Shown: positions 13,902-39,013 of the stretch, piece after piece
Position numbering within the stretch: the first letter of the stretch is position 1
How the letters are laid out: every line of letters begins with the position of its first letter
Origin: a virus
Virus record (IMG/VR): IMGVR_UViG_3300038422_000022
Location: 1 to 39,013 of that record
Reading direction: 5' to 3' (one strand)
DNA length: 39,013 bases
Program-made: the position numbers and the translations under genes
The notes under the pieces: model-generated
The model's database searches: none
Seen by the model: the letters and a program-made list of their open reading frames with translations, nothing else
What the model was told of the DNA's origin: nothing

Positions 13902-14003
13902 CTATCCCGCGAGGAGCCCGAACAGGACGATGACGCAAACCACCGTCGCCACGATGATCACGGTATAGCGGCCCCGATTCGTCAGCTTGTCCCAGCCAGT
14001 CAT
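13902..14003 (-). CDS. Membrane micropeptide in the lysis cluster, 33 aa
   Basis: ATG 14003 overlaps the endolysin stop (ATGA). MTGWDKLTNRGRYTVIIVAT then VVCVIVLFGLLAG: a basic N-terminus and one strong hydrophobic span. It could be a holin, pinholin or antiholin component working with the two-span protein next to it. Confidence 0.6.
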   Translation of the reverse strand: MTGWDKLTNRGRYTVIIVATVVCVIVLFGLLAG

Positions 14004-14473
14004 GCGATGCCCCTTTCATACGGATGCAGGACGCCATCCGTGCCAAGCACCCGGGCATCTCGCCTGGGCACTCCGTCGCTCAGGAACGAAACATGGATCC
14101 ACGTCCCTTCCTCGAGCAGTTGGTCATATCGGACGTTGCTCCGAGCGATGATCTCGAACGCCTTGCGAATCGAGAATCCGTGTACATGGAAGTCGCACGC
14201 CTCGCCGCGCATGTGCTGGCTGTTGATGGAGCCTCGAACCGCGGCGTTGACCTGTGGGCTTCGGTATCCCGAGTGGACCGAGATCGGACGGTGGAACAAT
14301 GAGCGGACAGATTCCATGCCGCAGGCGAAGGTGTGTACCAATCGGCGGGCCGACTCCGGATCCGGATTGTTAGCCAGTATCGCCCCGGATGCATCCCGCT
14401 GGGTCGTAACGGTGGCCTCGGCCCAGGTGAAATGCTCTGAGATGGTGCTGCGGGAGGTGGGGTCGAAATTCAT
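14000..14473 (-). CDS. M15-family peptidase endolysin, 157 aa
   Basis: This protein matches the Peptidase_M15_3 (D,D-carboxypeptidase/endolysin) pattern. ISEHFTWAEAT at residues 11-21, SGYRSPQVN at about 68-76, SQHMRGEACDFH at 85-96 giving zinc ligands H87 and D94, and TWIHVSF with H127. It should cleave peptide bonds in peptidoglycan stems. The start is ATG 14473, overlapping the tail-tip gene stop; longer in-frame starts back to 14539 lie inside that gene. There is no signal peptide, so export would need a holin, consistent with the membrane genes downstream. Confidence 0.93.
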   Translation of the reverse strand: MNFDPTSRSTISEHFTWAEATVTTQRDASGAILANNPDPESARRLVHTFACGMESVRSLFHRPISVHSGYRSPQVNAAVRGSINSQHMRGEACDFHVHGFSIRKAFEIIARSNVRYDQLLEEGTWIHVSFLSDGVPRRDARVLGTDGVLHPYERGIA

Positions 14474-17454
14474 GGTTCCGAGCCTACGTGACAGACGCCA
14501 CGCAATACCGAGACCGTGCCGGATCCGCTCCCAGCCCATTCGAGCTGGACTACCCCGGACGTACTGGCCATGGCCACGTACGCTTTGAGGTCGAGGAATA
14601 CGATCTGCGTTTCTACTCCCAACGTAAGGCTACTGGTCGCGGCCGCTAGCGTGGTGGTCCACTCCACGATTTCTCCACCGGGCAAATTCGCCTGCGTGAG
14701 TTGCCAGCGACAGATCGGAATCATGCCGGTTGGACCGTTGAGCCGGAAACAGACCGCGCTGGTGGCAGCGTTCTGGTAGGCGATAGTGCACGTGACAATG
14801 GCATGACTACTGGACTTAATCCACCACGAGGCGCCGCCCACGGCGGTCCAACTGGTAGAGTTTTTCGATGCAGAAATGACGGAGGAATAGGGAGTAATGT
14901 CCGCATCGAGCTGGTCGAAGTACCCGGTCCCCGCGGAGGCCGAGATCGTGAAGCGCACGCAGGCAGTGCCCGCCGGAACCAGGGCGTACAACTCCGATCC
15001 CGTCGCGGGGAAGATCCAGTTAGTGCTTGTGGTCGAGTAGGAGGTGACCTCGGTCCATGAGCTGGAGTCGTAGAAGGAGATCGCGATCTTGGGCGTAGCC
15101 CCGGCACCGGAAGACTTGAGAAAACCCCGGAAACGCACCAGGGAGCCGGGCGCCACGGGGTACTCGACGGACAGGCTTTCCCCGTTCGGCACGCTGCGGC
15201 CGTAGGTAGTGCCCCCGTAAGCCGCCGCGGTGGCTCGGTACTTGAACTCTGCCGAGTTGAGTACGTCATCAGTCGCTCCCGTTGGCGGCTCCGTCTCGGA
15301 GTCGCCGTTGGGCCACAGGTTCGTAGATGTCGTGGCTGTTAGGTTGGCCTGCGAGACGACCGCCGTACCGATGACGGGATTCGTCACCACCCGTCGCGCA
15401 TAAAGGGCATCGAATTCCACCGTGTCGTTAGCCCTCGCAAACCAGTAGAGGAGGGCAGCATTGGCTGTCGTCCCCGCGACCGCAGACACGATCGAAGTCT
15501 TGGTCCATGAAGATGATGTGACATTCGGTGCCTGGTGCGAAGCAAGGTACGAGCCGGTGTCTCCGAGAGTGGTATAGAAGTTGACTCCAACCGTGCCGCC
15601 GGATCCGCTTCCAGATGTACGGCGCACCATCGCCTCGACGTAAAACCTAGCTCCGGGCGAACAGGGGATCCAGATCCCGTTCCCCGTATCTGAGCCACCC
15701 GCGGCGATGCGACGCACGTATGATCCACTATACGCGCCGGCCCCCGCATAGTACCGATCGGCCCATTCCGGGGAAGACAAGTCAGCCCCGTCGGGAGGCG
15801 CGATCTCGCTAGTCGGATTGGGAAACAGGTTGTCCCGGTCGTAGAGGGAAGTCGTCAGCTTCCCGATGTCAACCGCACTCGACGTAATGGCCCCGGATCC
15901 AACGGTCGTCGCATCCCAGGTACTTCCATTGTACCGATAGAGCTTGTTCCCGTCGTTCGTGTCGTACCAGAGATCGCCCACTGCGAACCCGGTAGGCTGC
16001 GCATCCTGCCGGTAGATGCGTGGCACATGATCGATGATGGACGACTCGGCCATGACGAGGGCGGCCGTGTTGTAGCCGTCGTCCGTCTGTGGCGTCAGAT
16101 CAACCACGGCGCTCGTTCCCGTCGGCTCCTCGATCGCCTCGATATTCCGGGTGCCGTCCGGGTTGTCCTCGATGAGCGAGATCCGGGCCTGGACGGCGGA
16201 GAGCCCGAGCTTGGACTCCGTCAACGCCACCAGATCCCCGACCTCGAGCAGTGCCCAGCGCGGGCCGACCGTGAAAGAGTAGCGATTGCGGCTATATATG
16301 CTCCGCTGCGCGAGCCAGGTCGAAAGTTTGTGCGCGTGCGCCTGGGTGGAGATCCATCGGTTTTCGGTGGTGGCTGCTCGGCGGACGCCGCGCACCGCGG
16401 CATCGGCCGGCTCGATCCACTCGGTCGTGACCTCGTTATAATCGCTCTCCCGGCTCCGGAACTTCACTGGCCAGGCGTTGAACACGTCGGCATCGAGGGT
16501 GGATCGGACGCGCACCGGGTCCGTGCCCGGCTCAAAGAGCAGCTCGTCCTCGTCCAGCACGACCGGTTGCGTCGGCGTGGGCGTCACCTGATTCGGGGGC
16601 GTGTAGGTGACGGAGTTCCCGGTCCGGATCTGAGTATCCAGCGGGACCACCTTCGCCTTGCCCTCGGACCAGACCAGGGTCGAGTTGCACGCCTGTAGCA
16701 ACTCCTCGAGCAGCTCCATCGTGGGCGTGCGCTCATCAATGAGCCGCGAGACGCCCAGGCTCATGGCCTTGCAGTACCGCGCGAAGCCAGAATCCGCCGT
16801 CCCGTCCGGTCCGTAGACCACATCCACGTCCGCAGCGGCGAGCCCGAGCCCGCGGCGCGCGTGGGTCAGCATGTCCTTGACCACCTCGCTCGGATCTGCG
16901 TCTACGGTCCATGGGGTGGATCCGGTGCATAGGGACTCCACTTCGAACGACATGGCCGGGATCTTGCCGTCGCGAAGCGTCCACTTCTGACTATAGACGT
17001 GGACCGTACCTTCAAAGGTCTGCCCCTCCGCCGGCTTGCCTACGAGATATGTCCAGGCCGTCGAGGTCTCCGCGATCACGGCCACCCCATTGGCCGTTCC
17101 GAATAGTGGGTCAGTGTCCGTGCCCGTGAAATCCGAGAGTGTATCGAGCTCGAATTTCTCCCGATCGGACCAAACGCGGATGATGGAATGGGCAGGCGCT
17201 TCGCAGAGGGCGAAAATGGCTGCGGCCACGTTGCCCTGGGCTAGAACCCATGCGGCCGCGCCGACCTGACTGCGGATATGAACGGAATCCGCTGCCCGAT
17301 CCCGGTAGAGGACTACGATGCTAGGGCACCGAACCGTTCCATAGGCCAGCGGAAGCGGCCTTGAGTAGCCGGCGAGCGTCAGTCCGGCGAGCGTCGGACC
17401 GATGATCGTCGGAGCGACATTCTTCGGTCTGTCCGGAAGGGTCCACCAGCTCAT
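14470..17454 (-). CDS. Large tail-tip / host-attachment protein (GTA megatron-like), 994 aa
   Basis: The N-terminal half resembles phage tail-hub proteins of the GTA/lambda J kind. It has SRPLPLAYGTVRCP near the start and a region typical of the putative phage tail protein (Phage-tail_3) family (SGFARYCKAMSLGVSRLIDERTPTM, LLEELLQACNSTLVWSEGKAKVVPLD). The segment around residue 480 (GDLWYDTNDGNKLYRYNG) is a short motif common in phage tip proteins. The C-terminal 450 residues hold two related beta-rich modules (from NLFPNPTSEIAPPDGA and from NLWPNGDSETEPPTGA) that look like carbohydrate-binding jelly rolls. ATG 17454 overlaps the DUF2163 gene stop. Likely receptor contact at the distal tail end. 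Confidence 0.85.
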   Translation of the reverse strand: MSWWTLPDRPKNVAPTIIGPTLAGLTLAGYSRPLPLAYGTVRCPSIVVLYRDRAADSVHIRSQVGAAAWVLAQGNVAAAIFALCEAPAHSIIRVWSDREKFELDTLSDFTGTDTDPLFGTANGVAVIAETSTAWTYLVGKPAEGQTFEGTVHVYSQKWTLRDGKIPAMSFEVESLCTGSTPWTVDADPSEVVKDMLTHARRGLGLAAADVDVVYGPDGTADSGFARYCKAMSLGVSRLIDERTPTMELLEELLQACNSTLVWSEGKAKVVPLDTQIRTGNSVTYTPPNQVTPTPTQPVVLDEDELLFEPGTDPVRVRSTLDADVFNAWPVKFRSRESDYNEVTTEWIEPADAAVRGVRRAATTENRWISTQAHAHKLSTWLAQRSIYSRNRYSFTVGPRWALLEVGDLVALTESKLGLSAVQARISLIEDNPDGTRNIEAIEEPTGTSAVVDLTPQTDDGYNTAALVMAESSIIDHVPRIYRQDAQPTGFAVGDLWYDTNDGNKLYRYNGSTWDATTVGSGAITSSAVDIGKLTTSLYDRDNLFPNPTSEIAPPDGADLSSPEWADRYYAGAGAYSGSYVRRIAAGGSDTGNGIWIPCSPGARFYVEAMVRRTSGSGSGGTVGVNFYTTLGDTGSYLASHQAPNVTSSSWTKTSIVSAVAGTTANAALLYWFARANDTVEFDALYARRVVTNPVIGTAVVSQANLTATTSTNLWPNGDSETEPPTGATDDVLNSAEFKYRATAAAYGGTTYGRSVPNGESLSVEYPVAPGSLVRFRGFLKSSGAGATPKIAISFYDSSSWTEVTSYSTTSTNWIFPATGSELYALVPAGTACVRFTISASAGTGYFDQLDADITPYSSVISASKNSTSWTAVGGASWWIKSSSHAIVTCTIAYQNAATSAVCFRLNGPTGMIPICRWQLTQANLPGGEIVEWTTTLAAATSSLTLGVETQIVFLDLKAYVAMASTSGVVQLEWAGSGSGTVSVLRGVCHVGSEP

Positions 17455-18293
17455 GCGGCACTCTCGGGAGGCGGGGAATCCGGGAAGCCACCGAAGCGGG
17501 CGATGTTCGAGAAGGCGTTACAGGCGGTCCGGGTGTGATCGCAGCCCTTGACCACGTTCACCCCCACGCCCGTGACGGGAGCGCTCGGAAGCGGTACGGC
17601 GAGCGTGCAATCCACCCCGGATACGGACAGGATCGTCATCTTGGTGCCCGAGAGCGCGCCGGATGTAAATTCCAACCAGCCGCCCGCGTTGGCGTTCGTG
17701 CTACTCGACGAGAGCTTGACGAGCGTGGTCGTCGAGCCCGAGGCCACCGTGCGCGAGTGCGTCCAGGTGGCCTTCGTCACCTTGCAAGTATTTGCCTCGT
17801 AAACCTGATACGGGCACATCGGATGAACGATGCGACGTGGTAATGGTGCCTCGAGCCTCGCGGCTAGGCTCTTGAGCGTTAGCCGGATGAGCGTCGAACC
17901 GGCCTCGGCATCCTCGATCCAGCCATCGAACAGATGCACGGCCCCGGCGATGTCCCCGTCTTGCTCGTAGTAGACCCGCTGGATGAGCACGGGCACCCGG
18001 TCGAACAGGTGCCGCATGGCCATGGCCTTGTATGTCAGCCCGCCCAGCGTGGTGTCCCCGGGGGCGAAGGCAAGATCACAGGTATCGACCTCGCTCGAGC
18101 CGGTGGAGATGGTCGGCTCCTCCGCGATGATCACTTCATCACAGTCGAAGGTATGCCCGCCGTAGATCACGTCCGCGTCCGCCGTGGTCCAGTACTTCGT
18201 CCCGGCCGCGAAGGTGAAGGTATACAGGTTCGCGACGCGGTGGATGTTTTCCGCGTACAGGACGGCATCGAGCGCGGCGCTGCTCGTCTTCAT
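17451..18293 (-). CDS. DUF2163-like tail hub protein, 280 aa
   Basis: The start is ATG 18293 (MKTSSAALDAVLYAENIHRV), overlapping the previous stop. It has the DUF2163 layout: TFTFAAGTKYWTTADADVIYGGHTF, a hub core (VDTCDLAFAPGDTTLGGLTYKAMAMRHLFDRVPV..RVYY), GWIEDAEAGSTLIRLTLKSLAARLEAPLPRR, and the Cys-containing MCPYQVYEANTCKV with a later CDHTRTACNAFSNIARFGGFP. In gene transfer agents and related siphoviruses this protein forms the tail hub, and the four cysteines are typical. The NlpC/P60 peptidase gene that usually follows is absent here. Confidence 0.88.
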   Translation of the reverse strand: MKTSSAALDAVLYAENIHRVANLYTFTFAAGTKYWTTADADVIYGGHTFDCDEVIIAEEPTISTGSSEVDTCDLAFAPGDTTLGGLTYKAMAMRHLFDRVPVLIQRVYYEQDGDIAGAVHLFDGWIEDAEAGSTLIRLTLKSLAARLEAPLPRRIVHPMCPYQVYEANTCKVTKATWTHSRTVASGSTTTLVKLSSSSTNANAGGWLEFTSGALSGTKMTILSVSGVDCTLAVPLPSAPVTGVGVNVVKGCDHTRTACNAFSNIARFGGFPDSPPPESAA

Positions 18294-18880
18294 GCGGTCA
18301 CGCTCACGAATTTGGCCTCGCAGGACCACCAGCCGGTAACGACCCGTCCAAAGGTGAGCGTGTCCTCTACGAAGCGAACCCGGCGGTGCCCGCTCCAGGT
18401 GATCGTATACGCCTTGGTGGCATCGGTGCTGTTGAAGGTGAACGTCGAGCCGGAGTTGTAGTACTGCCCGGGGTCCGGAGGATTCGTGTCCAGGGTGGCC
18501 GCGACTCCGGCGATGGTGACGCCCACCGTCGAGGCGAAGGCGAGTCCGGTCGAGCTGACGGTGACCTGGTACGGGGTCCCCGGGATCGTCCCGCTCGAAA
18601 CCACGTTGATCGGGTCCACCAGCAGGAAGGAATCCCACGCGCCCTTGTGGTCATCGATCCACTTCACCAGGATGGAGTGTTCGTTGTAGGCGCCCCAGGG
18701 GCTCGGCGCGGCTGTCCCTTGCCGGACTGTCTCCGTGATCCGGTAGTGCCACACGGGATTCGTGCGCCAGGAGGTCCGCTGCTCGAGCCCCGAGACCGTC
18801 TGGTGGATAGTGGACACATAGGACGGGGAGCGCTCCACGATGATCTGGCCGGGCAGGGTGGGGAAGACGTTGCTACTCAC
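18290..18880 (-). CDS. DUF2460-like distal tail protein, 196 aa
   Basis: GTG 18880 overlaps the tape-measure stop. It opens MSSNVFPTLPGQIIVERSPS, with the early WRTNPVWHYRITET and FLLVDPINVV segments fitting DUF2460 proteins, the Dit-like distal tail component of GTA-type tails. Residues about 100-170 hold an extra beta module (VTVSSTGLAFASTVGVTIAG ... YYNSGSTFTFNSTDATKAYTI) whose G-x-YTF-x-x-x-DA pattern also appears in the tube protein at 20859. The last part is RVVTGWWSCEAKFVSVTA. It should connect tube to hub. Confidence 0.8.
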   Translation of the reverse strand: MSSNVFPTLPGQIIVERSPSYVSTIHQTVSGLEQRTSWRTNPVWHYRITETVRQGTAAPSPWGAYNEHSILVKWIDDHKGAWDSFLLVDPINVVSSGTIPGTPYQVTVSSTGLAFASTVGVTIAGVAATLDTNPPDPGQYYNSGSTFTFNSTDATKAYTITWSGHRRVRFVEDTLTFGRVVTGWWSCEAKFVSVTA

Positions 18881-23689: not shown

Positions 23690-25045
23690 CTACCCGGTCC
23701 GGGTGGCGGTGGTAACGCAGTGGGACAGCGTGGTGTTGGTGTCCAGCTTCGGAACGACCGCGCTCGAGAGGACCGGGACCTGCCCCAGCCTGATGTACGA
23801 CCGCAGCGTGGTCAGCCCCTGGTCGAAGTAGAAGAAGATGGTCGCCTGCGAGTTCACGCCGCCCTTCACGAGCGTCATGAAGCCGGAGGGAGCCACCGCC
23901 GTCGCGTCACCGGCCGTGCCGACCGCCTGGGCTTCCATGGAGACGACCACCGGATAGCCGAGGATCGTCGGGCCCGGACCGCGGCCCAGATAGTCCCCGG
24001 TGTTCCCGCCCGCCGTGAGCAGCACGTCGTTCGCGGCGATGCGAGCAGAGGGGGACATGACGAAGAAGGCTTCTGCGTCGAAGCCCGGGACGAGCCGACC
24101 GGCCATCTTCGCCAGGTTCTGCCGGATGAGGGTATTGGCACCGTTGCCAGACGCCTCCGCCGCCACGCTGACGAGTGCCGGGGCATTCAGGATGCCCACC
24201 GGCTCCCCCATGCCCGACCCGCGGAGGAGCCAGCGCTCCACGATGCCCTGAAGCTGTCGCGCCATGATGCGCGTGACGTGCTGGATGGTCGCCGGGTTGT
24301 CGGAGACGAGCTCCTCCGTCATGTTGACGAGCGCGGTGGCCTTGTAGAGCGTGACCACGCGCTGGCCGAGGGCGATGTTCGACACGGTGGCCGCCGCGCC
24401 CTCTGCGTTCTTCGCCGCCTGGATGCCGGTCGTGCCCCACTGCGTGCTCTCGTCCACCGGAGCCTGGTAGATGTTCGAGCTCGACTGCATCGGGCGCATC
24501 CGCCCGAGCAGGGACGCCTGCCCCATCACGGCTTCGATAATCTCCTTCGAGAACTCCGGAGGCTGGGCCCACCCGCCTTCGGGGCCGGTCCCCTCGTTCG
24601 CGTACGTTGTAGCCGCGGCGTAGGCGCGGAGCCGGTGATCCACCAGGTCCGGCCGGACGGCCGAAGCCTTGATGGCGTTGAACCACGCCTGGGCGTTCTC
24701 GAACCCGCCCTTCGGTGACTTCGTGGACATCTCCGCCTGCCAGGTCACGGACGGACCGCTACCCGGGGTGGGCGGGGGAGTGCTGCTGCTCCCCGCCTTG
24801 GCCGCGGCCACCTCGCTCGAGATGGGGCTCGGCACGGGGGCGAGGATCTTCGCCTGCGCCTTGGCCGCCTTCTCGAACCGCTCGATCTCCTCGCCGAGCC
24901 GCTCCTGCGCCGCCTCGTTCTCCTTCAGCTCCTTCATCTCGTCATCGGTCAGCGGCCGGCTGGCCGCAAGGGCCGCCTGCGTGATCGTGGTCTGCTTCGC
25001 CACGAGCTCCGCGAGCCGGTCCTGAAGCTGCTTCACGGGATCCAT
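23690..25045 (-). CDS. HK97-type major capsid protein, 451 aa
   Basis: Residues 1-70 form a coiled-coil scaffold (delta) domain (VKQLQDRLAELVAKQTTITQAALAASRPLTDDEMKELKENEAAQERLGEEIERFEKAAK). A Pro/Ser-rich linker follows, where maturation cleavage is expected. The shell domain shows the classic family features: FSKEIIEAVMGQASLLGRMRPM, TALVNMTEELVSDNPATIQHVTRIMARQLQGIVERWLLRGSGMGEPVGIL, FVMSPSARIAAND, ILGYPVVVSM, and the terminal TTLRSYIRLGQVPVL. The protease gene lies immediately upstream (leftward sense), as in HK97-like phages. Confidence 0.96.
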   Translation of the reverse strand: MDPVKQLQDRLAELVAKQTTITQAALAASRPLTDDEMKELKENEAAQERLGEEIERFEKAAKAQAKILAPVPSPISSEVAAAKAGSSSTPPPTPGSGPSVTWQAEMSTKSPKGGFENAQAWFNAIKASAVRPDLVDHRLRAYAAATTYANEGTGPEGGWAQPPEFSKEIIEAVMGQASLLGRMRPMQSSSNIYQAPVDESTQWGTTGIQAAKNAEGAAATVSNIALGQRVVTLYKATALVNMTEELVSDNPATIQHVTRIMARQLQGIVERWLLRGSGMGEPVGILNAPALVSVAAEASGNGANTLIRQNLAKMAGRLVPGFDAEAFFVMSPSARIAANDVLLTAGGNTGDYLGRGPGPTILGYPVVVSMEAQAVGTAGDATAVAPSGFMTLVKGGVNSQATIFFYFDQGLTTLRSYIRLGQVPVLSSAVVPKLDTNTTLSHCVTTATRTG

Positions 25046-25048
25046 TCG

Positions 25049-25780
25049 CTACTCCTTCGACTGCTTGGGTTGCTTCTGACCAGGCTGGCCCGGTCTTGCC
25101 GCGGCGCTGGCGCCGCGGGCCTGCTCCTCGATACGCTGGCGCATCAAGGATCCCTCCATCCTCCGGAGCGCGGCTTCCGCCTTGAGGCTGCGGAGACCGG
25201 CCGGCGTATTCTTGTAAGCGTCGAGAAGGGACGAGTGGAGCGCTGCCCTCGGGTCCTTGGGCTCCTCATCGAGCACTTGATCCGCGAAGCCGAGGGCCTT
25301 GGCGTCCACCGCCGAGAGCCATGTCTCCTCCTCCATCATCTTGGAGATTGTCTCGCCATCCTGTCCCGAGGCGGAGGCGTAGATGTCCCGCATGGTGGCG
25401 GCCATCTTGTCCAGGTCGTCCGCCTTCTTCCGGGCTTCCCTGGCATTGCCGACGAACACGGCCCAGGGCGAGTGGATCATCAACATGGCCGACTTGGGCA
25501 TGACGAGCCGCGTCCCGGCCAGCGCGATGATCGAGCCGATGGAGATGGCGCGACCATCCACGTACATCGTGACATCTCGCTCCGCCGAGTAGCGCTGGAT
25601 CTGGGAGTGGATGGCGAGCCCTTCCGTAACGCTGCCACCGTCCGAGGAGAGGTAGATGGTCAGGGCCTTGGCGGCTTTGTTCGCCTCGAGATCCCTCGCC
25701 ACCGAATCGGCCGTGACGCCTTCGCCCGAGCCGGGCATGGCGCCGATCATGCCGTAGATCCTGATTGTGCCAGCCTTCAT
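25049..25780 (-). CDS. ClpP-like prohead protease, 243 aa
   Basis: The ClpP fold is recognisable. IYLSSDGGSVTEGLAIHSQI carries the oxyanion glycines, DGRAISIGSIIALAGT places the nucleophile at S80, and MLMIHSPW gives H103. ETWLSAVDAKALGFADQV is the usual third region. The C-terminal 60 residues are basic and Gln/Pro-rich (QPGQKQPKQSKE). Such proteases cleave the capsid scaffold domain during head maturation. ATG 25780 overlaps the portal stop. Confidence 0.93.
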   Translation of the reverse strand: MKAGTIRIYGMIGAMPGSGEGVTADSVARDLEANKAAKALTIYLSSDGGSVTEGLAIHSQIQRYSAERDVTMYVDGRAISIGSIIALAGTRLVMPKSAMLMIHSPWAVFVGNAREARKKADDLDKMAATMRDIYASASGQDGETISKMMEEETWLSAVDAKALGFADQVLDEEPKDPRAALHSSLLDAYKNTPAGLRSLKAEAALRRMEGSLMRQRIEEQARGASAAARPGQPGQKQPKQSKE

Positions 25781-27303
25781 TGGGACCCCAGGAGATGGTG
25801 GGCTGCCTTCATGGGCGGGATGCCCGCCTCGACGGACAGGATCGCCGCGTCGAGTCCGGCAATCTTCCGGCCGTCCACCTTGCTTCGGATATCAGACCGG
25901 GCCTTGGAGCGCAAAGAGGCCATGTGTTTGGGAGCGTCCTGGTCCTTGCCATTGGCGCGGAGATCCGCCGTCCTGGCCTTGACCCGGGCCGCGTGCCGCT
26001 CGAGCGCGGCGGCCACCTCGCCGGGCACGTCCTCCTCCTCCTCCGGTTCCTCCGGCTCCTCGATGGGGGCCGGGGCCGGGGGCGCGGGAGGATTGAGCAC
26101 CTCCTCGAGCGGCTTCCCGTTCACCAGCGTCACGTCCCCGCCGACGGTGGAGGGCAAGCCCCGCTCCTTGCGCGCCTCGTTGATGGTCAGGACGCCATTT
26201 CGGATGGCGATCTCCTCGGCGCGGGCCACCGATTCGGCATCTCCCTTGGTGAGCCGGGAGAGGTCGTACTCCATGAACCAGCGCCGGCCGCGGCGCTCGG
26301 GCATCAGCTTCTTCCGCAGTTCCTCCTCGATGCGGCGCGCCCAGGGCTGGAGCGTCTGCCGGACGAAGCCGAGACCCATCTCCGCCAGATTCTTGCCGTA
26401 GCCCTGGGACGACTCCGGGACGCCCACCAGATGACCCGGCACCCCGAAGTAGCGGGCGATCTCGCTCACCTGCCAGGTCCGGGACTGCACCATCTGCGAC
26501 TTGTCGGCATCCGTCTCGATGACCTCGAGATCCCAGCCCGGGTTCATGACCGCCACGCCGCGGGCCTTCTTCGTCCCGCCGTGCAGCACCTTGAACGCCT
26601 CGCGGATCACCTTGCGCTGCTCGTCCGTCATCGGCCCGGCGCTCACCGGAGGCTTGAGCAGCACCCCCGGGAGAGCGTTGTTCGAGTAGTAGCCAGTCGC
26701 GTAGCGCTCCTGGGCTCGAGCCAGGGCCAGCGCCGAGGCCGCCACGATGAGCGGGGAGAAGCCATAGAAGCCATTTCCCCGCGGGCCTCGGACGTGGATG
26801 ATGTCCGAGTCGGGGAGGCGTACTTCCCCGTTCACCGGGTCGTTATAGCGGTAGACGAGCCGTCCCTCCTCGTCATCCGCCAGCATTCGATACGGGTCGA
26901 GCGGCTGCATGGCCACCGCCTGGCGCAGCCCGTTCCGCTGGATGTAGGCGTACCCGTTGCCGGTCGAGAGGGTGTGCGTGAGGATCGTCTCCGTCCACCC
27001 CTGGGACGTGTACTGCGGATGAGGCTGGACGTTGAGCAGCCAGTAGAGCTGGCTCGTCACCTCCTCCTCGGTGCGCGTCCCTTCGTCGTCCTTGTAAATC
27101 TTGATCTCGCTCGCGGCGATCGGATCCACAATGGCGCGGATGCAGGCCCAGGCCACGGATACCGACAACTGCTCATCCGGTGACAGGTAGAGCTGGGTCG
27201 GGATGCTCCCGAACTCGCCCCACCACGATGGAGCGTCATAGCGCGGCGAATCCGGCGCCGGGGTCCCCCTGAGTGCCGCCCAGACCCTAGCAAAGACGCT
27301 CAT
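25777..27303 (-). CDS. Portal protein (HK97 family), 508 aa
   Basis: Typical HK97-type portal: VSVAWACIRAIVDPIAASEIKIYKDD, LLNVQPHPQYTSQGWTETILTHTLSTGNGYAYIQRNG, IIHVRGPRGNGFYGFSPL, MNPGWDLEVIETDADKSQMVQSRTWQVSEIARYFGVPGHLVG, and FMEYDLSRLTKGDAESVARAEEIAIRNGVLTINEARKERGLP. After the core, residues about 415-508 add an acidic Pro/Glu segment (APIEEPEEPEEEEDVPGEVAAALERHAAR) and a basic helical tail. A dodecameric DNA channel is expected. ATG 27303 overlaps the terminase stop. Confidence 0.96.
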   Translation of the reverse strand: MSVFARVWAALRGTPAPDSPRYDAPSWWGEFGSIPTQLYLSPDEQLSVSVAWACIRAIVDPIAASEIKIYKDDEGTRTEEEVTSQLYWLLNVQPHPQYTSQGWTETILTHTLSTGNGYAYIQRNGLRQAVAMQPLDPYRMLADDEEGRLVYRYNDPVNGEVRLPDSDIIHVRGPRGNGFYGFSPLIVAASALALARAQERYATGYYSNNALPGVLLKPPVSAGPMTDEQRKVIREAFKVLHGGTKKARGVAVMNPGWDLEVIETDADKSQMVQSRTWQVSEIARYFGVPGHLVGVPESSQGYGKNLAEMGLGFVRQTLQPWARRIEEELRKKLMPERRGRRWFMEYDLSRLTKGDAESVARAEEIAIRNGVLTINEARKERGLPSTVGGDVTLVNGKPLEEVLNPPAPPAPAPIEEPEEPEEEEDVPGEVAAALERHAARVKARTADLRANGKDQDAPKHMASLRSKARSDIRSKVDGRKIAGLDAAILSVEAGIPPMKAAHHLLGSQ

Positions 27304-29123
27304 TCGTCGTCATCCTCTCCGGTCGGCCATGTGCCAAGCCAGGGGCGGTCCTCCGGTGCCTTGGGCTGGTCGTCCTCGAGCGAAACCACCGTGAGCCCAG
27401 GTCCCCCGTAATCTACCACGGGTACAAGCATTGCCCTATACATGGCATTCAGCAAAGCGACCGCCAGGTCTATTTTTTTTCCGTCATGGTCCCGGTCCGG
27501 CACGGCGTTCCCGTTCCGGTCGATCTTCGCAATCACGTTGGCCATGCACAGGCGCATGACCGGGTTCCCGTCGTGGGTGAGCCGACCCTGGGATAGCGCC
27601 ACCTGCACTTCCGACATGGCCGGGCTATGGAATCGCCATCCCTGGCGGATCTCTACCGGCTCGATCCCCTCGGAGGGAAGCGAGGCCATGAGCTCCACCA
27701 TGCCGAACGGATCGAGGCAAATCTCCGTCCCCGGGCGCCCTTTTGCCATCTCCACCAGACTCGGCCGCAGGTAGGCGGCGTCGAGCGCGTCGCCCGGGGT
27801 CAACGTCAACCAGCCCATTTCCGCCCACTTGCGCAGCTCCGGAATGTCATTCAGGGTGGGCGAGCCCTCGGGCAGATAGGCGTGCGACCGGACCGCGTAC
27901 TGCCGCTTCCCGTCCTCGCTCAGCGAGACGCCCACCGTCACGATGCCCGTGAGATCCAGCTTCGGCGCGTAATCCACTCCAATCAGCACCGGCCGTGCCT
28001 GGAAGTCGGCATCCGTGACCTTTCCCGCCCGGCTATCCCACAGGCCCAGGTCCATCCAGGAGTTCGCGCTGCGCCACCACCAGCCCAGCCGGGTGGCGAA
28101 GAAGTGCGGCTGCGCCGTTGGGTCGAGCTTGGCCGACTCCGCCATGGTCTTGAAGTTGGGGCCGCTGATGCTCACACCGAAATTTGGGTTGGCCTGCCGC
28201 CAGGTCTCCTCCGACCACGGGTCCCGATCCCGGTCCGCCTCCGAGATGAAGGCAAAATGGGCCGCGGAGTCAGACTCGCCCAGGAGCACGGACCGCGCCT
28301 CGCAGTAGAGAAGCCAGCCCACCGCCTGGGGCGACTGGTCCGTCCCGGCCGTCGAGATCACCACTAGCCTCGAGCCATCCACCTTCGATGCGTTGTTCGC
28401 CAGCACGTCGTAAAGGTGCCGATTCGGATGCTGGTGGACCTCGTCCACGATGTAGCAATCGCCTACTGTACCGTCGGCCGACCTCCGCTCGGAGCTCACG
28501 CATTCGAAAACCCGGTTATCCCCGATGCCCTTGATCGAATGCTCGCCCACTACCAGGCCCGCCGCGTCCCGGATATCCGGCGACAACCGCACCATCTCCT
28601 GGGCTGGCTCAAACACGTTGCGCGCCTGCTTCTCGGCCACCGCCGCGCTGTACACCTTCGCCCCGATGGACCGGCCCCGCGCCAGCACGATGAGGCCGAT
28701 GAGCGCAGCCAGGGGACTCTTGCCGTTCCCCTTCGGAAGCCAGATCGACACCCGATGAAATCGGGGAAGTCCCGTAGCCGCATCCACCCAGCCGAAGATC
28801 GCCCGTATTAACCAGACCTGCCAGGGCTCGAGGACGATCGCCTGTCCCCGCTTCGGACCCTTCGGCCAGGAGAACGCCTCCGCCAACTCGCACGCCTTCG
28901 ATGCCTCGACCTCGCTCCAGGCGTACCCGGCGGGAGGCGTCTTGACCTCTCTCGCTTGCCGCTCGACCGCGAGGATCACGAACTCGCCCACGAGTATCCG
29001 CCGGGCGAGCACGTCTCGAGCCCATCGGTCCGCGATGGCGCGATACTCGCGCACCCCGTCCACCGGCTCCCGCGGGGGCCTCGTCCGTCGGCGCTTGGGC
29101 GCCCCTGAAATGTCCGGATTCAC
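27300..29123 (-). CDS. terL: Terminase large subunit (HK97/P27 type), 607 aa
   Basis: The ATPase domain has Walker A WLPKGNGKSPLAAL (K135, S136) and Walker B CYIVDEVHQHP (D227, E228), followed by SRLVVISTAGTDQS, the coupling motif. The nuclease domain begins LIGVDYAPKLDLTGIV and ends with DLAVALLNAMYRAM, supplying the acidic residues. It packages DNA with the portal and cuts it into genome units. GTG 29123 overlaps the small subunit stop. HNH-TerS-TerL-portal order is characteristic of phages with cohesive-end (cos) packaging, but no cos site was identified. Confidence 0.97.
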   Translation of the reverse strand: MNPDISGAPKRRRTRPPREPVDGVREYRAIADRWARDVLARRILVGEFVILAVERQAREVKTPPAGYAWSEVEASKACELAEAFSWPKGPKRGQAIVLEPWQVWLIRAIFGWVDAATGLPRFHRVSIWLPKGNGKSPLAALIGLIVLARGRSIGAKVYSAAVAEKQARNVFEPAQEMVRLSPDIRDAAGLVVGEHSIKGIGDNRVFECVSSERRSADGTVGDCYIVDEVHQHPNRHLYDVLANNASKVDGSRLVVISTAGTDQSPQAVGWLLYCEARSVLLGESDSAAHFAFISEADRDRDPWSEETWRQANPNFGVSISGPNFKTMAESAKLDPTAQPHFFATRLGWWWRSANSWMDLGLWDSRAGKVTDADFQARPVLIGVDYAPKLDLTGIVTVGVSLSEDGKRQYAVRSHAYLPEGSPTLNDIPELRKWAEMGWLTLTPGDALDAAYLRPSLVEMAKGRPGTEICLDPFGMVELMASLPSEGIEPVEIRQGWRFHSPAMSEVQVALSQGRLTHDGNPVMRLCMANVIAKIDRNGNAVPDRDHDGKKIDLAVALLNAMYRAMLVPVVDYGGPGLTVVSLEDDQPKAPEDRPWLGTWPTGEDDDE

Positions 29124-30654: not shown

Positions 30655-30975
30655 TTACGGGTGGTCCTGCACCTGGATGGTGGCCCGCTCGATCTGGGGC
30701 CAGCCATCCGTACCTGCCTTGTCCACCGTGACGGCGGCATAGACCCGGCCGGCGGAGGAGAGGCGGAAGCCCACCGAAGCCTTACCCGCGGAGCTGGGCA
30801 GGAGCACGCTCCCGGTGGCGGTCGTGACGACGGTATCCGTGGAGAGGGGCCCTGTGCGAACGATAGCCGCAACGGTTGCGCCGCTCAGGTCTACGGCCAC
30901 GCCCGTGATGCGGTCCGTCACGGTCGCCAGCAGTTCCACCCATTCGCCCTTCTCGACGGTCAAGGTCAGCATCAC
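30655..30975 (-). CDS. Small Ig-like/beta-sandwich virion protein, 106 aa
   Basis: ATG 30975 overlaps the preceding stop. Entirely beta-rich: MLTLTVEKGEWVELLATVTDRITGVAVDLSGATVAAIVRTG, GSVLLPSSAGKASVGFRLSSAGRVYAAVTVDKAG. The pattern resembles small immunoglobulin-like domains that follow fibre genes in phages. Likely a structural or fibre-associated protein, by fold impression only. Confidence 0.55.
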   Translation of the reverse strand: MMLTLTVEKGEWVELLATVTDRITGVAVDLSGATVAAIVRTGPLSTDTVVTTATGSVLLPSSAGKASVGFRLSSAGRVYAAVTVDKAGTDGWPQIERATIQVQDHP

Positions 30976-32936
30976 GTTCTCCGCGTTAGGCGGACCTGGT
31001 ATCCGGACCGCTGAAGTTGGGTATCGATCCGCTCGCTAAGGACCATCTTGTAGCCAGACCGGGAGAGCCGCATCCGCATGGACGCGGTGTATTGAATCCC
31101 GAGAGTGGCCTCGGCCCGTCCATCGGCGGATCCGATTAGGGCTTGATTCTGCGCCAGGAAAGCGACGGTCTGGCCGATACCAGTCGCGGTGCCACTGAGG
31201 ACGTATCGGTTGAGGATGGCTGTGGCATCGCCCTGTCCAGCCGCCGTGCCTATGAGCTCCGTTGGGAGCTGCGGACCGATTGCGGTCGCCCCGCCTATAC
31301 CGGCTGCGACACCTGCCAGCGGTTGAGAGATATGCAGGAGGGCGAGCGCGTTTCCTCGACCATCGGCAAGTGCCCCGAGGCCGGCCACGTCAAGGCTGGC
31401 ATCGGCGTAGCCCTCTCCGTCGGCGTCACCTACCAGGGCGGCGCCATAGGTCCCCGTGGCGGTGGCTCCTGCGTAGCCAGATGCGAGCCCGATGAGTGGA
31501 GCCTCGGGACCCCAATAGTCGGTCGCGGCGATCCCTACCGCCATGGAGCTACCATCGGCGGCCCGCACGAAGAAGGCACCGATGCCGGCGGTCAGCGTCT
31601 CCCCGGCACTCGTGATAGTGAAAAGTGTGTAGCTGCCTCGTTCGCTCTGCTGAAGGTAGCCAGAAGCTTGGCCCTGACCGGCTGCCAGGGCCTCGAGCGG
31701 GGGCTGTATCGTAAGCTGGCTCGACAGCCCGTTGCCCGTCCCCGCTGCTGATGCAACGAGTCGGGTGTCACCTGGGCTCGTAGCCGCTCCGCCGGCGGAA
31801 CCAGCGGCGATGCCGCTTAGGGCTACCGGGGGAATGACATCAAGGTAGATGACTTGGCCATCGCTCGACGAAATGACGAACGAGGTAGGTCCCGTGATGC
31901 CGGTGACGTCTACGCTCCATGTGGTAGAAGTCGGGTAAGTCACCGTCCCGATCCCGACTTCTCCTCCCCCGATGGCGAGGGCCCCTGCTTGTCCCGCGGC
32001 GATGCCTACGAGCGGCCTGACTTGGCTCAATGCGCCGGAGGCAGAACCTAGCCCGTCGGCCCTGGCTGCCATGCCGCCTATGCCGGCTTGTCCAGCAGCG
32101 ATGCCGGATGTGATCCCCGAGAGCGTGACATCCGAGATCCGTCCGGCCGTGCCCTGTCCCAGGCCGGCCGCGATGCCGGAGAGCAAAGAGCCCGCTAGAA
32201 GTCCGGCTGCGATGACCGTGGCGAATCCGCCCGCCGAGCCCACGAGATCGACGGGAACAATGGGGGCGGCCGGCAGGACGGCAAAGACGATGCCCGTCGA
32301 GCTGTCGGCCGTGCCCCCAGCCGTCAGCGTGAATGTCGCTCCGGCCGAGCCCGCAGTAGCCTGCCCCTTTTGACGCTGACCGAAGTACAGATCCGAATAG
32401 GTGGAGCTGTCGAGATCTGTCCCGATGGCACTGTAACTGCCATCATTGGTCAGTCCCGTTGCGTTGTCATCTGACTGGACGATGGTCGCCAAGCACAGGC
32501 GGTCCGCACCGAGAGTGGCAAACGCCGTCAGGTTGACGGTTGAGGAGTTGGGGGCCGAAACGGTAGTCACGGCCTCCCACGCATCGGTGAGTGTGCCCGT
32601 GTCCTTCCAGGTGCCGGCCGTGATGGAGATGGCTCGAGCCGCGTAGTGGCATGAGGTGCCCGATGCATTAGCGCTCACCAGCGGATCCGTCACCGCTGCG
32701 CTGGTGGCTCTCAAGGCATAGACGGTGGAGCGGCTCCGGGTGGTGCCGGAGTCATTGACGACCGTGCCCACCTCCGTCCAACCGCTGATGGTCTGCGTAC
32801 CGGCGGGGCTCGTGTTGCGCCCTGCGCCGCAGAACACGATGAGCAGATCCCCCGTTGCATGCGTGGGGAGTATGCAGGTCAGGTTGGTGTTGGCCTGCAC
32901 CACGCTACCGACGGCGCGGATCGTCGGGAGTGCCAT
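30972..32936 (-). CDS. Tail-fibre-like protein with AAG repeats, 654 aa
   Basis: Residues 1-225 form a beta-sandwich-like head (LPTIRAVGSVVQANTNLTCILPTHATGDLLIVFCGAGRN, ISGWTEVGTVV) that is common at the start of phage receptor-binding or fibre proteins. Residues 230-620 contain about a dozen degenerate repeats of the form L-x-G-x-AAG-x-G-x-A-x-A (for example LIGTAAGQGDATAIL, LAGVAAGIGGATAIG, LSGTATGIGQTVAFL), interrupted near 345-375 and 455-475 by short beta segments. The same motif occurs in the fibre protein at 34160. The C-terminus is basic (RMRLSRSGYKMVLSERIDTQL). ATG 32936 has only a weak ribosome binding site. Confidence 0.7.
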   Translation of the reverse strand: MALPTIRAVGSVVQANTNLTCILPTHATGDLLIVFCGAGRNTSPAGTQTISGWTEVGTVVNDSGTTRSRSTVYALRATSAAVTDPLVSANASGTSCHYAARAISITAGTWKDTGTLTDAWEAVTTVSAPNSSTVNLTAFATLGADRLCLATIVQSDDNATGLTNDGSYSAIGTDLDSSTYSDLYFGQRQKGQATAGSAGATFTLTAGGTADSSTGIVFAVLPAAPIVPVDLVGSAGGFATVIAAGLLAGSLLSGIAAGLGQGTAGRISDVTLSGITSGIAAGQAGIGGMAARADGLGSASGALSQVRPLVGIAAGQAGALAIGGGEVGIGTVTYPTSTTWSVDVTGITGPTSFVISSSDGQVIYLDVIPPVALSGIAAGSAGGAATSPGDTRLVASAAGTGNGLSSQLTIQPPLEALAAGQGQASGYLQQSERGSYTLFTITSAGETLTAGIGAFFVRAADGSSMAVGIAATDYWGPEAPLIGLASGYAGATATGTYGAALVGDADGEGYADASLDVAGLGALADGRGNALALLHISQPLAGVAAGIGGATAIGPQLPTELIGTAAGQGDATAILNRYVLSGTATGIGQTVAFLAQNQALIGSADGRAEATLGIQYTASMRMRLSRSGYKMVLSERIDTQLQRSGYQVRLTRRT

Positions 32937-32950
32937 CTAATGCACCATGG

Positions 32951-34159
32951 TCATGAACCGAGAACGGAAACGGAGACAGTGGTTCCGAGCTCCATGTGGC
33001 CGCTTAGCGTAGTGGCTCCTCCTATGACTGGAGTCGCTCCGGAGGACAGCACCGTGCTAGCCTCTAGCATCCGGTCATAGGCGGGCTTCCGATCCAGCTC
33101 GTAGTCGAGTAGGTGCCCGTTGGGCATCCACACTGGATCATCCCTGCCATCCTCTATGTCGGATAGTATCCATGGCGAGATCCTCTTGACTTCGGATCCG
33201 ACACGCATCACCGCCATCGTGAACTGGTAGAATCGTTCGCCCTGGGCGTCGAGGTTGGCTTGTGGTATCGGCGGTGATGGCGTGTTCCAGTTGTAACCGT
33301 CTCCATCCGTGTACATGGCCAGCGTCTGATCGTCCAATTCGGACACATGGATCTCTAGACCCAGCGCTGCGAATCGATCGAGGTTCGTCTTGATCGATGC
33401 AGCATCGACGGCGCTGGCCCACATATGGCCCTGGAACGCGACCCCGTCGATTGGTATGCCGCGGTCGATCATGCCATCGACCGTCAGGTACAAAACGTTC
33501 GATCGCGTGTTGACTGCCTCCGCTGAGTATTCGGCCATCAAGAGCTTGATGTCGGGACGGCCAGCATCGATCCTAGCCTGGTGGGCCACCTGGAAGGCGT
33601 AGTCCACTTCCTCATAGAGGGAATGAAACACCGCATTCGGATTACCGAGGGTGTCAAGCAACTCGTTCGTAACCTCGATCATCTTGAACAGTGGGTTCGA
33701 GGCATACCGAAGGATCGTCGCCCGTAGCAACGCCTCGCCGAATGCGAGCCGATCGGCCCTCGGCAGGACTTTCACCCAGTTCGGTGTGACGTTGATGTTG
33801 TTGTAGATCGGCGAGGCGAAGCCCACTTGCATGCCTCTACCCGTATGGAACGCAACGACATCGTCGAGCGGATCCCACACGTAGGTAGGATTGGGCCACT
33901 GGTTCGCAGGCGCTACCCTCGTGATGTTGAGCAGATCCCAGCCGGTAGTCCCAGGGGCTGGTGTCAGGAAGATCGGCCAGGCTGGCAACGACGGCGCGAT
34001 GCTCCCCTCCGCCAGCTGGGCTGCTTCGATCGCGCTACGTTCCTGGGCCGTCGTTCGGGACCACCACCAGTTATTGGTCCCGATCGACATCGGCAGACCG
34101 ATGTACGATCCGAAGACGATCCCGTGAGAGGCAAGGGCGGTTTTCAGCTCACCGGCCAC
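32951..34159 (-). CDS. GH10-like glycoside hydrolase in the tail-fibre module, 402 aa
   Basis: The protein shows the GH10 (endo-beta-1,4-xylanase) barrel pattern. VWDPLDDVVAFHTGRGMQV is at about 94-112, and MIEVTNELLD supplies the acid/base E166 in its NE dipeptide. PIDGVAFQGHMW has H245, and LGLEIHVSELDD has the nucleophile E274. ISPWILSDIEDG has W330, and DRKPAYDRML ends the barrel. The usual GH-LVWH-x-QxPxW loop is replaced (FASPIYNNINVTPNWV), so the substrate may not be xylan. Residues 368-402 form a short beta tail (VIGGATTLSGHMELGTTVSV), perhaps for virion attachment. GTG 34159 has GGAG upstream. A role in degrading host surface or environmental polysaccharide is inferred from position. 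Confidence 0.85.
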   Translation of the reverse strand: MAGELKTALASHGIVFGSYIGLPMSIGTNNWWWSRTTAQERSAIEAAQLAEGSIAPSLPAWPIFLTPAPGTTGWDLLNITRVAPANQWPNPTYVWDPLDDVVAFHTGRGMQVGFASPIYNNINVTPNWVKVLPRADRLAFGEALLRATILRYASNPLFKMIEVTNELLDTLGNPNAVFHSLYEEVDYAFQVAHQARIDAGRPDIKLLMAEYSAEAVNTRSNVLYLTVDGMIDRGIPIDGVAFQGHMWASAVDAASIKTNLDRFAALGLEIHVSELDDQTLAMYTDGDGYNWNTPSPPIPQANLDAQGERFYQFTMAVMRVGSEVKRISPWILSDIEDGRDDPVWMPNGHLLDYELDRKPAYDRMLEASTVLSSGATPVIGGATTLSGHMELGTTVSVSVLGS

Positions 34160-35161
34160 CTAAAGGTCTCCGCCTCGCCAAGTATCGACGTAGTCGCTCG
34201 CGTTTCCAGCCATCCAGAATCCTGGCTTACCGCCCGAGATGTTCGAATCGGTGGTCGAGACGCGCGTGGTCCAGGCCGAGCCGTCCGTGCTAGTCCGTGC
34301 CCGGATCGTCGTACCGTCCGCCTCTACACGTAGCCATGCCGGCACGGTGGCACCGCAATCATAGCTGGAACCGATTTGAGTCGGGACGCCGGATGAGTTC
34401 GTCCGCTCCAGAATCAGGAAGTAAGTAAAGTACTCAACGTCATCGTAATAGATTCGCGCCCGATAGCATTGCTTCTCGTCCGTCTGGATGCGACATGCGA
34501 CAGCACGCTCCCCCGGATCCGTCGGTCCGTAGGTATCCGCGTACTGATTCGAGGCAGGCGATCCGGTGATGTACCGCACGAAGGCTGGATAACCACTGAC
34601 CGCGACCACCTTGTTTCCGCTGATGGTCGGCAGGAACGTCGTGCGGTCGATGTCCCAATCCGATCCCAGGGAGCCGTCCGCTCGATTGAAGGTGTCTTCG
34701 GCAGAGAAGGCAGAGCTCGAACCAAGGACACTCGTCCCGGCTGCGGCGCCGGCCGCCGTGCCGATGATCTTCGTCCGGAAGCCATCTCCAGCCCCGGTGA
34801 CGGTCGCCACGCCGGCCGCCGTACCGATGAACACCGCAGGTACGAGCCCGTTGCCCAACGCGGTCGCCAGGCCAGCCGCTGTTCCGACCATCGGTTGATT
34901 CTGGGCCAAGAGTGCAGCCGCATTACCCGTGCCTGCCGCTATGCCACTCTGTGCACCGGGCACCAGTACACCGACACCCTGTCCGGCTCCGGGTCCGATT
35001 CCTCCCAGGATGATCCCGTAGGCAATCGGAAGCGACCACTGCCCCAAGGCATCTGCCGTACCCGAGCCAAGCAGAAGCCCGGAGGCAAGATCCCGATACT
35101 CGACCGCCTGGTTCGGGCTCGCGATCCCTTCTGCCAGGATCCGAGTGACGATCACCGGCAT
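34160..35161 (-). CDS. Fibre protein with AAG repeats and lectin-like C-terminus, 333 aa
   Basis: ATG 35161 (MPVIVTRILAEGIASPNQAV). Residues 45-150 carry about five AAG-type repeats (SGIAAGTGNAAALLAQ, MVGTAAGLATALG, FIGTAAGVATVTG, IIGTAAGAAAG) related to those in the 654-residue protein. Residues 155-333 start DTFNRADGSLGSDWDID and end GKPGFWMAGNASDYVDTW, a pattern typical of concanavalin/LamG-like sugar-binding domains in phages. The stop directly abuts the GH10 gene, and the pair may act together: binding and then cleaving a glycan. Confidence 0.7.
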   Translation of the reverse strand: MPVIVTRILAEGIASPNQAVEYRDLASGLLLGSGTADALGQWSLPIAYGIILGGIGPGAGQGVGVLVPGAQSGIAAGTGNAAALLAQNQPMVGTAAGLATALGNGLVPAVFIGTAAGVATVTGAGDGFRTKIIGTAAGAAAGTSVLGSSSAFSAEDTFNRADGSLGSDWDIDRTTFLPTISGNKVVAVSGYPAFVRYITGSPASNQYADTYGPTDPGERAVACRIQTDEKQCYRARIYYDDVEYFTYFLILERTNSSGVPTQIGSSYDCGATVPAWLRVEADGTTIRARTSTDGSAWTTRVSTTDSNISGGKPGFWMAGNASDYVDTWRGGDL

Positions 35162-35313: not shown

Positions 35314-35739
35314 TCAGTTCTCGGTGATGGTGAGCTGGTCGATCGCGAACGACGCAGTAGCGCCCACCGAGACCGTCACCGGAGCACCGGTCACGGATCC
35401 CCAGTAGAGCAGGTTCCCGGCGGTGCTGGCATCCCAGATGCCGAAGCCGTTCACCGTCCAGGCCACCGAGGTCACCGCCGCGAATGTGATCGCGGCTGCA
35501 TTCTTGACGGTGCTGGCTGCGATGAACGTCGCCGCCGTGTAGTTCCAGTCGGCGTCCGCCGTGCCGACCCCGACGCGGGCGTAGCCGTACTGGCCGATGG
35601 TCAGCTCTGTGCCGAGGTTGCCCGTTGTGGGCACCGTCGAGAACAGGCCGACATAGAGCGTTCCGGGCTGGGTGTAGGCCGTGGTGCGGAAGATGTGGTT
35701 GAGGAGACTGTTCGAGAGCGTGTACGCCTTGCCGCCCAT
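35314..35739 (-). CDS. Phage tail fibre protein (small, beta-rich), 141 aa
   Basis: ATG 35739 with GGGAGG upstream. It matches a common small phage fibre family: LSNSLLNHIFRTTAYTQPGTLYVGLFSTVPT, TELTIGQYGYARVGV, AAAITFAAVTSVAWTVNGFGIWDASTAGNLLYWGSVTGA, ending in ASFAIDQLTITEN. The YVGLF...YAR...I.F...W..V..FGI.D signature is well known for these proteins. First gene of the fibre block. Confidence 0.85.
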   Translation of the reverse strand: MGGKAYTLSNSLLNHIFRTTAYTQPGTLYVGLFSTVPTTGNLGTELTIGQYGYARVGVGTADADWNYTAATFIAASTVKNAAAITFAAVTSVAWTVNGFGIWDASTAGNLLYWGSVTGAPVTVSVGATASFAIDQLTITEN

Positions 35740-38026: not shown

Positions 38027-38406
38027 CGCTCCCCCTCCCTGCGCAGGGTGGCTAGCTTCTCTCGAAAGGCAAGCTCCGACGCACGATGCCCGCCGGCGAC
38101 TGCCAGCACGATCCCGGAATCGAGCACCGAATCCAGCCGGGCCCGCAGCCTCTCCACCTCCGCGCGGAGGGCGTCACGCTCGGCGTCGGCGGCCTCGCGC
38201 TGGGCTTCGGCCTGCACGTGTAGCTCCCTCGCCTCGTCCCGCTCGCGCTCCGCTTTGTTCCGGGCGAGCTTCGCACGCTTGACTTCAGCATCCCTGAGCT
38301 CCGCCCATTCCTCCAGAGCGCCCATCTCCTCGTTGGTGAGGATAGCCGCCCACTCTCCGAGGCCGAGGCTCTCGCACCACTCCACCCGGTCGTCATAGTC
38401 GCTCAT
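38023..38406 (-). CDS. Modular coiled-coil protein, 127 aa
   Basis: ATG 38406 overlaps the stop of the repeat-protein gene (ATGA). The N-terminal MSDYDDRVEWCESLGLGEWAAILTNEEMGALEEWAEL is acidic. A charged coil follows (KRAKLARNKAERERDEARELHVQAEAQREAADAERDALRAEVERLRARLDSVLDSG), then a small Gly/Ala segment and the tail ATLRREGER. It shares the RAEVERLR module and the boundary tail with neighbours. Function unknown. Confidence 0.65.
   Translation of the reverse strand: MSDYDDRVEWCESLGLGEWAAILTNEEMGALEEWAELRDAEVKRAKLARNKAERERDEARELHVQAEAQREAADAERDALRAEVERLRARLDSVLDSGIVLAVAGGHRASELAFREKLATLRREGER
38146..38174 (-). repeat. Shared coil module, copy D
   Basis: Same 29-base sequence as 37676-37704; encodes the (D)ALRAEVERLR segment of the gene at 38023. 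Confidence 0.85.
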
Positions 38407-39013
38407 CGTTCCCCCTCCCCGCGCAGGGCGGCACAAAGCAGGTCCTCAAGAATGCGGTTCGCGGCGGCCCACGCGGCGTCCCACGCGGCGTCACTCGCGG
38501 CGTCCCTCGCGGCGGCCCACGCGGCGTCCCACGCGGCGTCACTCGCGGCGGCCCACGCGGCGGCACTCGCGGCGGCCCACGCGGCGTCACTCGCGGCGGC
38601 CCTCGCGGTGGCCCTCGCGGCGTCCCACGCGGCGTCACTCGCGGCGTCCCTCGCGGCGGCACTCGCGGCGGCACTCGCGGCGGCACTCGCAGCGGCACTC
38701 GCAACATTCTCCGCGGCGTCACTCGCGGCGGCCCACGCGGCGTCCCTCGCAGCGGCCCACGTGGCGTCGCTCATCCTCCCCTCCATCCACTCGATCGTGG
38801 CATCGGTGACCGCCCAGGATCGGGGATCTGGCTCACGTCCCGCGGCCCGCTTGGCGCGGAGCGCAGCCAAGGCCAACCCTAGGGCGTAGATGCGTAGGTC
38901 TCGCTCCACGTCGGCCATCGCTAGGACCGTCCGCTCGGTCGCGCATGCCTTGTCCTTGCCCTCCATGATCTTCCCGGAGAGCCGGACCCGGCAGACGATG
39001 GACCCAGGGGCGT
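38403..39013 (-). CDS. 3' part of tetrapeptide-repeat protein (paralogue B)
   Basis: The reading frame is open to the window end and continues at position 216 and below on the left copy, starting at ATG 388. An internal ATG at 38966 (MEGKDKACATERT) would give a shorter form but has no ribosome binding site. After the conserved head, 26 tetrapeptides follow (AAAR, DAAW, AAAS, DAAE, NVAS and others) and then the C-terminus NRILEDLLCAALRGEGER. The array is 10 units longer than in paralogue A at 11206. One unit (DAAE/NVAS) departs from the W/R/S rule, suggesting an older, more diverged array. Confidence 0.85.
   Translation of the reverse strand, partial: APGSIVCRVRLSGKIMEGKDKACATERTVLAMADVERDLRIYALGLALAALRAKRAAGREPDPRSWAVTDATIEWMEGRMSDATWAAARDAAWAAASDAAENVASAAASAAASAAASAAARDAASDAAWDAARATARAAASDAAWAAASAAAWAAASDAAWDAAWAAARDAASDAAWDAAWAAANRILEDLLCAALRGEGER
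38457..38768 (-). repeat. 12-bp minisatellite, 26 units, in frame
   Basis: Exactly 312 bases in 12-base phase on the leftward strand: G(C/A)C-GCC-GCG-NNN with the variable codon mostly TGG, AGG or AGT/AGC. The final three units (DAAW DAAW AAAN) match the end of the array at 11622-11813. Confidence 0.95.
38798..39013. repeat. Terminal redundancy, right copy
   Basis: Matches bases 1-216 except at 38925 and 38928. See the left copy. Confidence 0.85.

Follow-up and report, generated by a model that had tools for sequence, protein, structure and literature searches.

A divergent GH10-like protein in a phage fibre module, a predicted glycanase whose probable target is the sugar coat of the host

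Within the 39,013-base record of an uncultivated bacterial virus, a single metagenomic record analysed here at its full length (the window), a divergent GH10-like protein is encoded between two fibre-like genes. Plant xylan is probably not the target of this predicted glycanase, which is more likely to trim sugars coating the host cell, because the residues used for cutting are kept and several of those that grip xylose are lost. As such, it is a new recruit to an already known type of phage tool.

Sequence family and predicted fold

The open reading frame lies exactly where the initial annotation had placed it.

32951..34159, minus strand: GH10-like protein, 402 residues, GTG start, no signal peptide

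The initial annotation had assigned this protein to GH10 and proposed a profile search, which bears the assignment out. Pfam GH10 (PF00331) matches with 94.1 bits (E 1.2e-26; cut-off 22.1 bits) over profile positions 56-310 of 311, far above chance level, and by its sequence the product is a real but divergent GH10 protein. Solved GH10 xylanases and a GH10-type design are likewise matched by sequence alone (best E 2.3e-18), and NCBIfam returns a sub-threshold match to a xylanase/esterase model. A PHROGs search gave zero matches, and a peptide-pattern search of viral contigs and genome contigs found no close relatives.

Structure prediction, also proposed initially, was run with AlphaFold2 on an alignment containing five GH10 rows, which bias the model toward a GH10 fold. 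The resulting model (pTM 0.68, mean pLDDT 59) has eight strands in barrel order, pointing at moderate confidence to a (beta/alpha)8 barrel. Glu166 follows strand four, His245 lies on strand six and Glu274 on strand seven, so that the predicted catalytic glutamate pair sits at the ends of beta4 and beta7. The best 50 Foldseek matches of the model in the PDB are all GH10 xylanases or GH10-type designs; in the predicted viral proteins of BFVD, the top named matches are for the most part phage proteins of family GH5, and the GH10 label does not occur among them. A control model from the single sequence, without an alignment, failed (pLDDT 34). The sequence evidence for GH10 holds independently of the model.

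Catalytic residues are kept while the glycone side is changed

The residues discussed below are encoded at the following positions.

33662..33664, minus strand: codon of Glu166, predicted acid/base, end of beta4 (alignments; predicted strand 158-165)
33425..33427, minus strand: codon of His245 (QGH), on beta6 (alignment and model)
33338..33340, minus strand: codon of Glu274 (SELD), predicted nucleophile, on beta7 (alignment and model)
33776..33829, minus strand: altered beta3 loop, residues 111-128, QVGFASPIYNNINVTPNW replacing RGHTLVWHxQxPxW (alignment)
33908..33964, minus strand: residues 66-84 at the site of the canonical ENxMKW; motif lost, alignment uncertain

We compared the protein with 11 GH10 proteins of phage, bacterial and archaeal origin. 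The motifs listed in the initial annotation, N165-E166, Q243-G244-H245, E274 (SELD), W330-xx-S333-D334 and K358-P359-A360-Y361, are at the positions given there and align with canonical GH10s; Asn165, Glu166, Gln243, His245, Glu274 and Trp330 are all kept in this comparison. The reported loss of the usual GHxLVWHxQxPxW loop on beta3 is equally evident: the loop reads VGFASPIYNNINVTPNW here, with His replaced by Ala and Trp by Tyr, leaving P-x-W alone. The beta5 asparagine has become alanine. The beta3 His, the beta3 Trp and the beta5 Asn are present in all 11 compared GH10s. The beta2 N..K pair is gone as well, in columns that are aligned with uncertainty because an insertion affects residues 20-85; the pair is also missing from two other GH10 proteins described below (the L101 domain and a Tsukamurella protein), both of which have their beta3-loop residues intact.

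The glycone-side contacts of GH10, which we take to be Asn44, Lys47, His80, Trp84 and Asn169 (Cex numbering), are usual in the family, not strictly defining of it; all five are changed here, the Asn44 and Lys47 columns being the uncertain ones. GH10 endo-beta-1,4-xylanases (PDB 1xyz, 1vbr, 2exo/Cex) thus share with this protein the profile, the barrel fold, the NE on beta4, the QxH on beta6 and the ELD on beta7, whereas the phage protein lacks the beta3-loop His and Trp, the beta2 N..K pair, the beta5 Asn and a signal peptide, and sits in a phage fibre block. This pattern suggests that the catalytic machinery is intact and that the glycone pocket has been rebuilt. Catalysis is plausible on these residues and xylan as the substrate less plausible. 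The initial annotation had suggested that the enzyme may degrade a xylan- or glycan-containing host capsule; few of the expected xylose-binding residues remain on the glycone side, which points to a glycan other than xylan.

The same changes could also be read as those of a GH10-derived glycan-binding module, a receptor-binding fibre component that has lost the ability to cut. Glycan binding is common among fibre proteins, conserved sugar contacts have disappeared at several positions, and the protein forms the longest branch in our tree. However, retention of the full catalytic set, from Asn165 to Trp330, makes a binding-only role unlikely.

The gene lies in a fibre block

The genes around the GH10 gene are arranged on the minus strand in the order Gp80-like, fibre A, GH10, fibre B, small genes, HNH, small terminase and large terminase (TerL), followed by portal, ClpP-type protease, capsid and then the tail module.

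35314..35739, minus strand: Gp80-like 'fiber I' protein (Pfam PF23140, E 1.5e-29; PHROG 240)
34160..35161, minus strand: fibre A, 333 residues, GxAAGxAxA-type repeats followed by a C-terminal domain that is lectin-like by eye
34168..34171, minus strand: GGAG, ribosome-binding-like, 8 bases 5' of the GH10 GTG (sequence)
30972..32936, minus strand: fibre B, 654 residues, N-terminal domain common to the relative L012, then fibre A-type repeats
27300..29123, minus strand: large terminase subunit, 3' of the fibre block (Pfam)

The setting among fibre genes claimed initially is supported, with fibre A 5' and fibre B 3' of the GH10 gene. Fibres A and B are fibre-like by architecture (Gly/Ala repeats), and profile searches matched neither to a named fibre family. 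The lectin-like end attributed to the neighbouring fibre is plausible by eye, without a match in profile searches or among PDB sequences. The GH10 gene is located in the structural operon, coupled to fibre A through TAG|GTG, as expected of a virion-associated depolymerase. No virion-anchoring domain was recognised in its product: GH10 fills the whole frame, separate after the TAG of fibre A, and the GxAAGxAxA-type repeat common to fibres A and B is absent from it. Its maximum N-terminal 15-residue hydropathy is 1.34, as against 2.3-3.5 in the five secreted-type GH10 proteins checked, and its sequence is predicted to lack the signal peptide or membrane anchor of a secreted auxiliary-metabolism xylanase.

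The third-position GC content (GC3) of fibre A, GH10 and fibre B is 0.70-0.73, against a mean of 0.84 (SD 0.06) in the core genes, and this lower value fits a block with a separate history. Among the terminase relatives, L012, a close one in which the region is covered, has retained a homologue of fibre B ahead of HNH-TerS-TerL, and the end of the gene preceding that homologue is unlike GH10; L003 (TerL about 70%) carries an integrase and no GH10 at the corresponding place. GH10 was seen in none of the 48 records with related terminases, many of which are fragments, and so looks like a lineage-specific addition. No terminase relatives were found in bacterial genomes, and the tail and portal relatives point to mixed hosts.

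Elsewhere in the window, the tail module (14000-18880) is of gene-transfer-agent type, with DUF2460, a phiJL001 Gp84-type hub, Phage-tail_3 and an M15 peptidase. An open reading frame at 38403-38966 codes for a protein rich in AASDAAWAAARDAA-type repeats; it lies within a repetitive, alanine-rich region with which the record ends.

GH10 proteins in other phages

GH10 is rare in phages yet not unique to this record. Its unusual character, noted at the outset, is reflected in the lack of a PHROG match, the predominance of GH5 among named BFVD matches and the lack of any genuine phage with a GH10 match among 50,697 records. Two INPHARED matches (MT839786.1 and MT835631.1; L004-L007), filed as 'Bacteriophage sp.', were rejected as phages; they carry canonical GH10 beside a sugar symporter or GH43-like gene and resemble Bacteroidales xylan-utilisation loci. 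Scans of 2.9 million viral contigs for canonical motifs returned few GH10 loci; they detect only the motifs used, so that divergent GH10s such as the present one would be missed. A further locus, L103, was left out of consideration because it is of the bacterial xylan type.

Four further IMG/VR phage or prophage contigs contain GH10. In L009, a prophage of Firmicutes type, the GH10 gene has a tail spike on one side and an amidase-like gene on the other; the phage contig L100 has it near tail-like genes, and in the phage contig L102 it stands between the genes of two large proteins, a short distance ahead of terminase and portal. These three enzymes have strongly hydrophobic, signal-like N-terminal segments, which the protein described here lacks. 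In the fourth contig (L101, IMGVR_UViG_3300045282_000084), a GH10 domain (244 bits) lies within a fibre-like repeat protein of 3,179 residues, encoded directly 5' of the major head protein gene. Both L101 and the present record thus have GH10 and repeats in a phage structural block and a changed N..K pair, at 28% identity; they differ in that the L101 domain is fused in its large protein and retains the beta3-loop His and Trp. The tree places the two side by side with a support of only 0.53 and long branches. The presence of GH10 within the fibre-like protein of L101 suggests that the entry of GH10 into the fibre modules of phages was probably not a single event. Repeats of DTISVTDxL type are numerous in the L101 protein (L101:3-9542), which also contains lectin-like stretches; a second region (RPFCEMNG) looks GH26-like by eye, without a Pfam or PDB sequence match.

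The signal-bearing enzymes of L009, L100 and L102, and the listing of a GH10 xylanase among viral auxiliary CAZymes in a mangrove soil virome (PMC6460857), are what one would expect if the protein were a carbon-scavenging auxiliary metabolic enzyme outside the virion, breaking down polymers from plants or the environment either to the benefit of the host or once it has lysed. We regard this as improbable for the present protein, given its lack of a signal peptide, its position in the fibre block and its altered xylose-contact residues.

Least probable is readthrough of the TAG by some of the ribosomes, which would make fibre A and GH10 one protein and hold the enzyme on the fibre, a sub-mechanism that could co-occur with action from the virion: the fibre A stop abuts the GH10 GTG in one frame, with only TAG between them and a domain boundary at the stop, and L101 offers a fused counterpart, but GGAG precedes the GTG, other genes including that for the capsid end in TAG, and the protease-TAG-capsid arrangement, likewise in frame, indicates that the layout is not special. 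In that arrangement the ClpP-type protease and capsid genes are split by TAG CGA at 25045-25052. Amber recoding was rejected, as TAG terminates the capsid gene and others.

Outside phages, a GH10-like protein of Tsukamurella tyrosinosolvens (WP_231857331.1) also lacks ENxMK and is 31% identical over 202 residues; it differs in its lipoprotein-like signal, its retained beta3-loop His and Trp and its location on a bacterial plasmid.

Discussion

On balance, we lean towards a virion-associated glycanase that acts on a host surface glycan, and we infer its virion location, activity, substrate and timing. A retaining GH10-fold glycanase would be made without a secretion signal, within the fibre module, and would assemble with or beside the repeat-bearing fibre proteins. 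During adsorption it would cut a glycan on the surface of the host, be it capsule, exopolysaccharide or wall polymer, with Glu166 as the acid/base and Glu274 as the nucleophile. Since the glycone pocket appears remodelled, the substrate is probably something other than plain beta-1,4-xylan. Virion association is favoured by the placement of the gene, by its GC3, close to that of both fibre genes, by the missing secretion signal and by the parallel with L101, catalysis by the retained glutamates, whereas plain xylan is disfavoured by the altered pocket. Against this reading count that the enzyme is not fused to a fibre and has no recognised virion-anchoring domain, that it comes from a single metagenomic record with no close homologue found, and that the model is of moderate confidence and biased by its GH10 rows.

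The best functional parallel, by analogy, is the GH5 cellulase gp095 of Erwinia phage S6, which degrades a cellulose substrate in vitro (PMC9544554). It too is a phage clan GH-A glycoside hydrolase, tied to a host surface polysaccharide receptor (PMC9544554), but it is a two-domain GH5 enzyme with activity shown in vitro. In a review of depolymerases, Caulobacter phage Cr30 is cited for a xylanase (PMC5380687). The Cr30 protein gp072 (L104:34691-35875), annotated 'beta-1,4 xylanase', has GH39 as its best Pfam match, with GH10 marginally over the cut-off, and bears no real similarity to the GH10-like protein. Our literature search, of incomplete coverage, found no paper on GH10 in a phage fibre module.

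More broadly, and tentatively, phage fibre modules may have taken up GH10 barrels on more than one occasion and adapted them, retaining the catalytic pair while remodelling the xylose pocket, into a class of non-xylan depolymerases directed against bacterial surface glycans. Depolymerases contribute to the host range of phages and are of interest as agents against capsules and biofilms; most of those known are beta-helix spikes, and some are GH5-type barrels. If GH10 barrels do serve in fibre modules, a well-studied enzyme scaffold would join this set, and a comparison of the L101 type, with a partly changed pocket, with the strongly changed type described here could address the way in which the pocket of a xylanase is remodelled to suit bacterial glycans.
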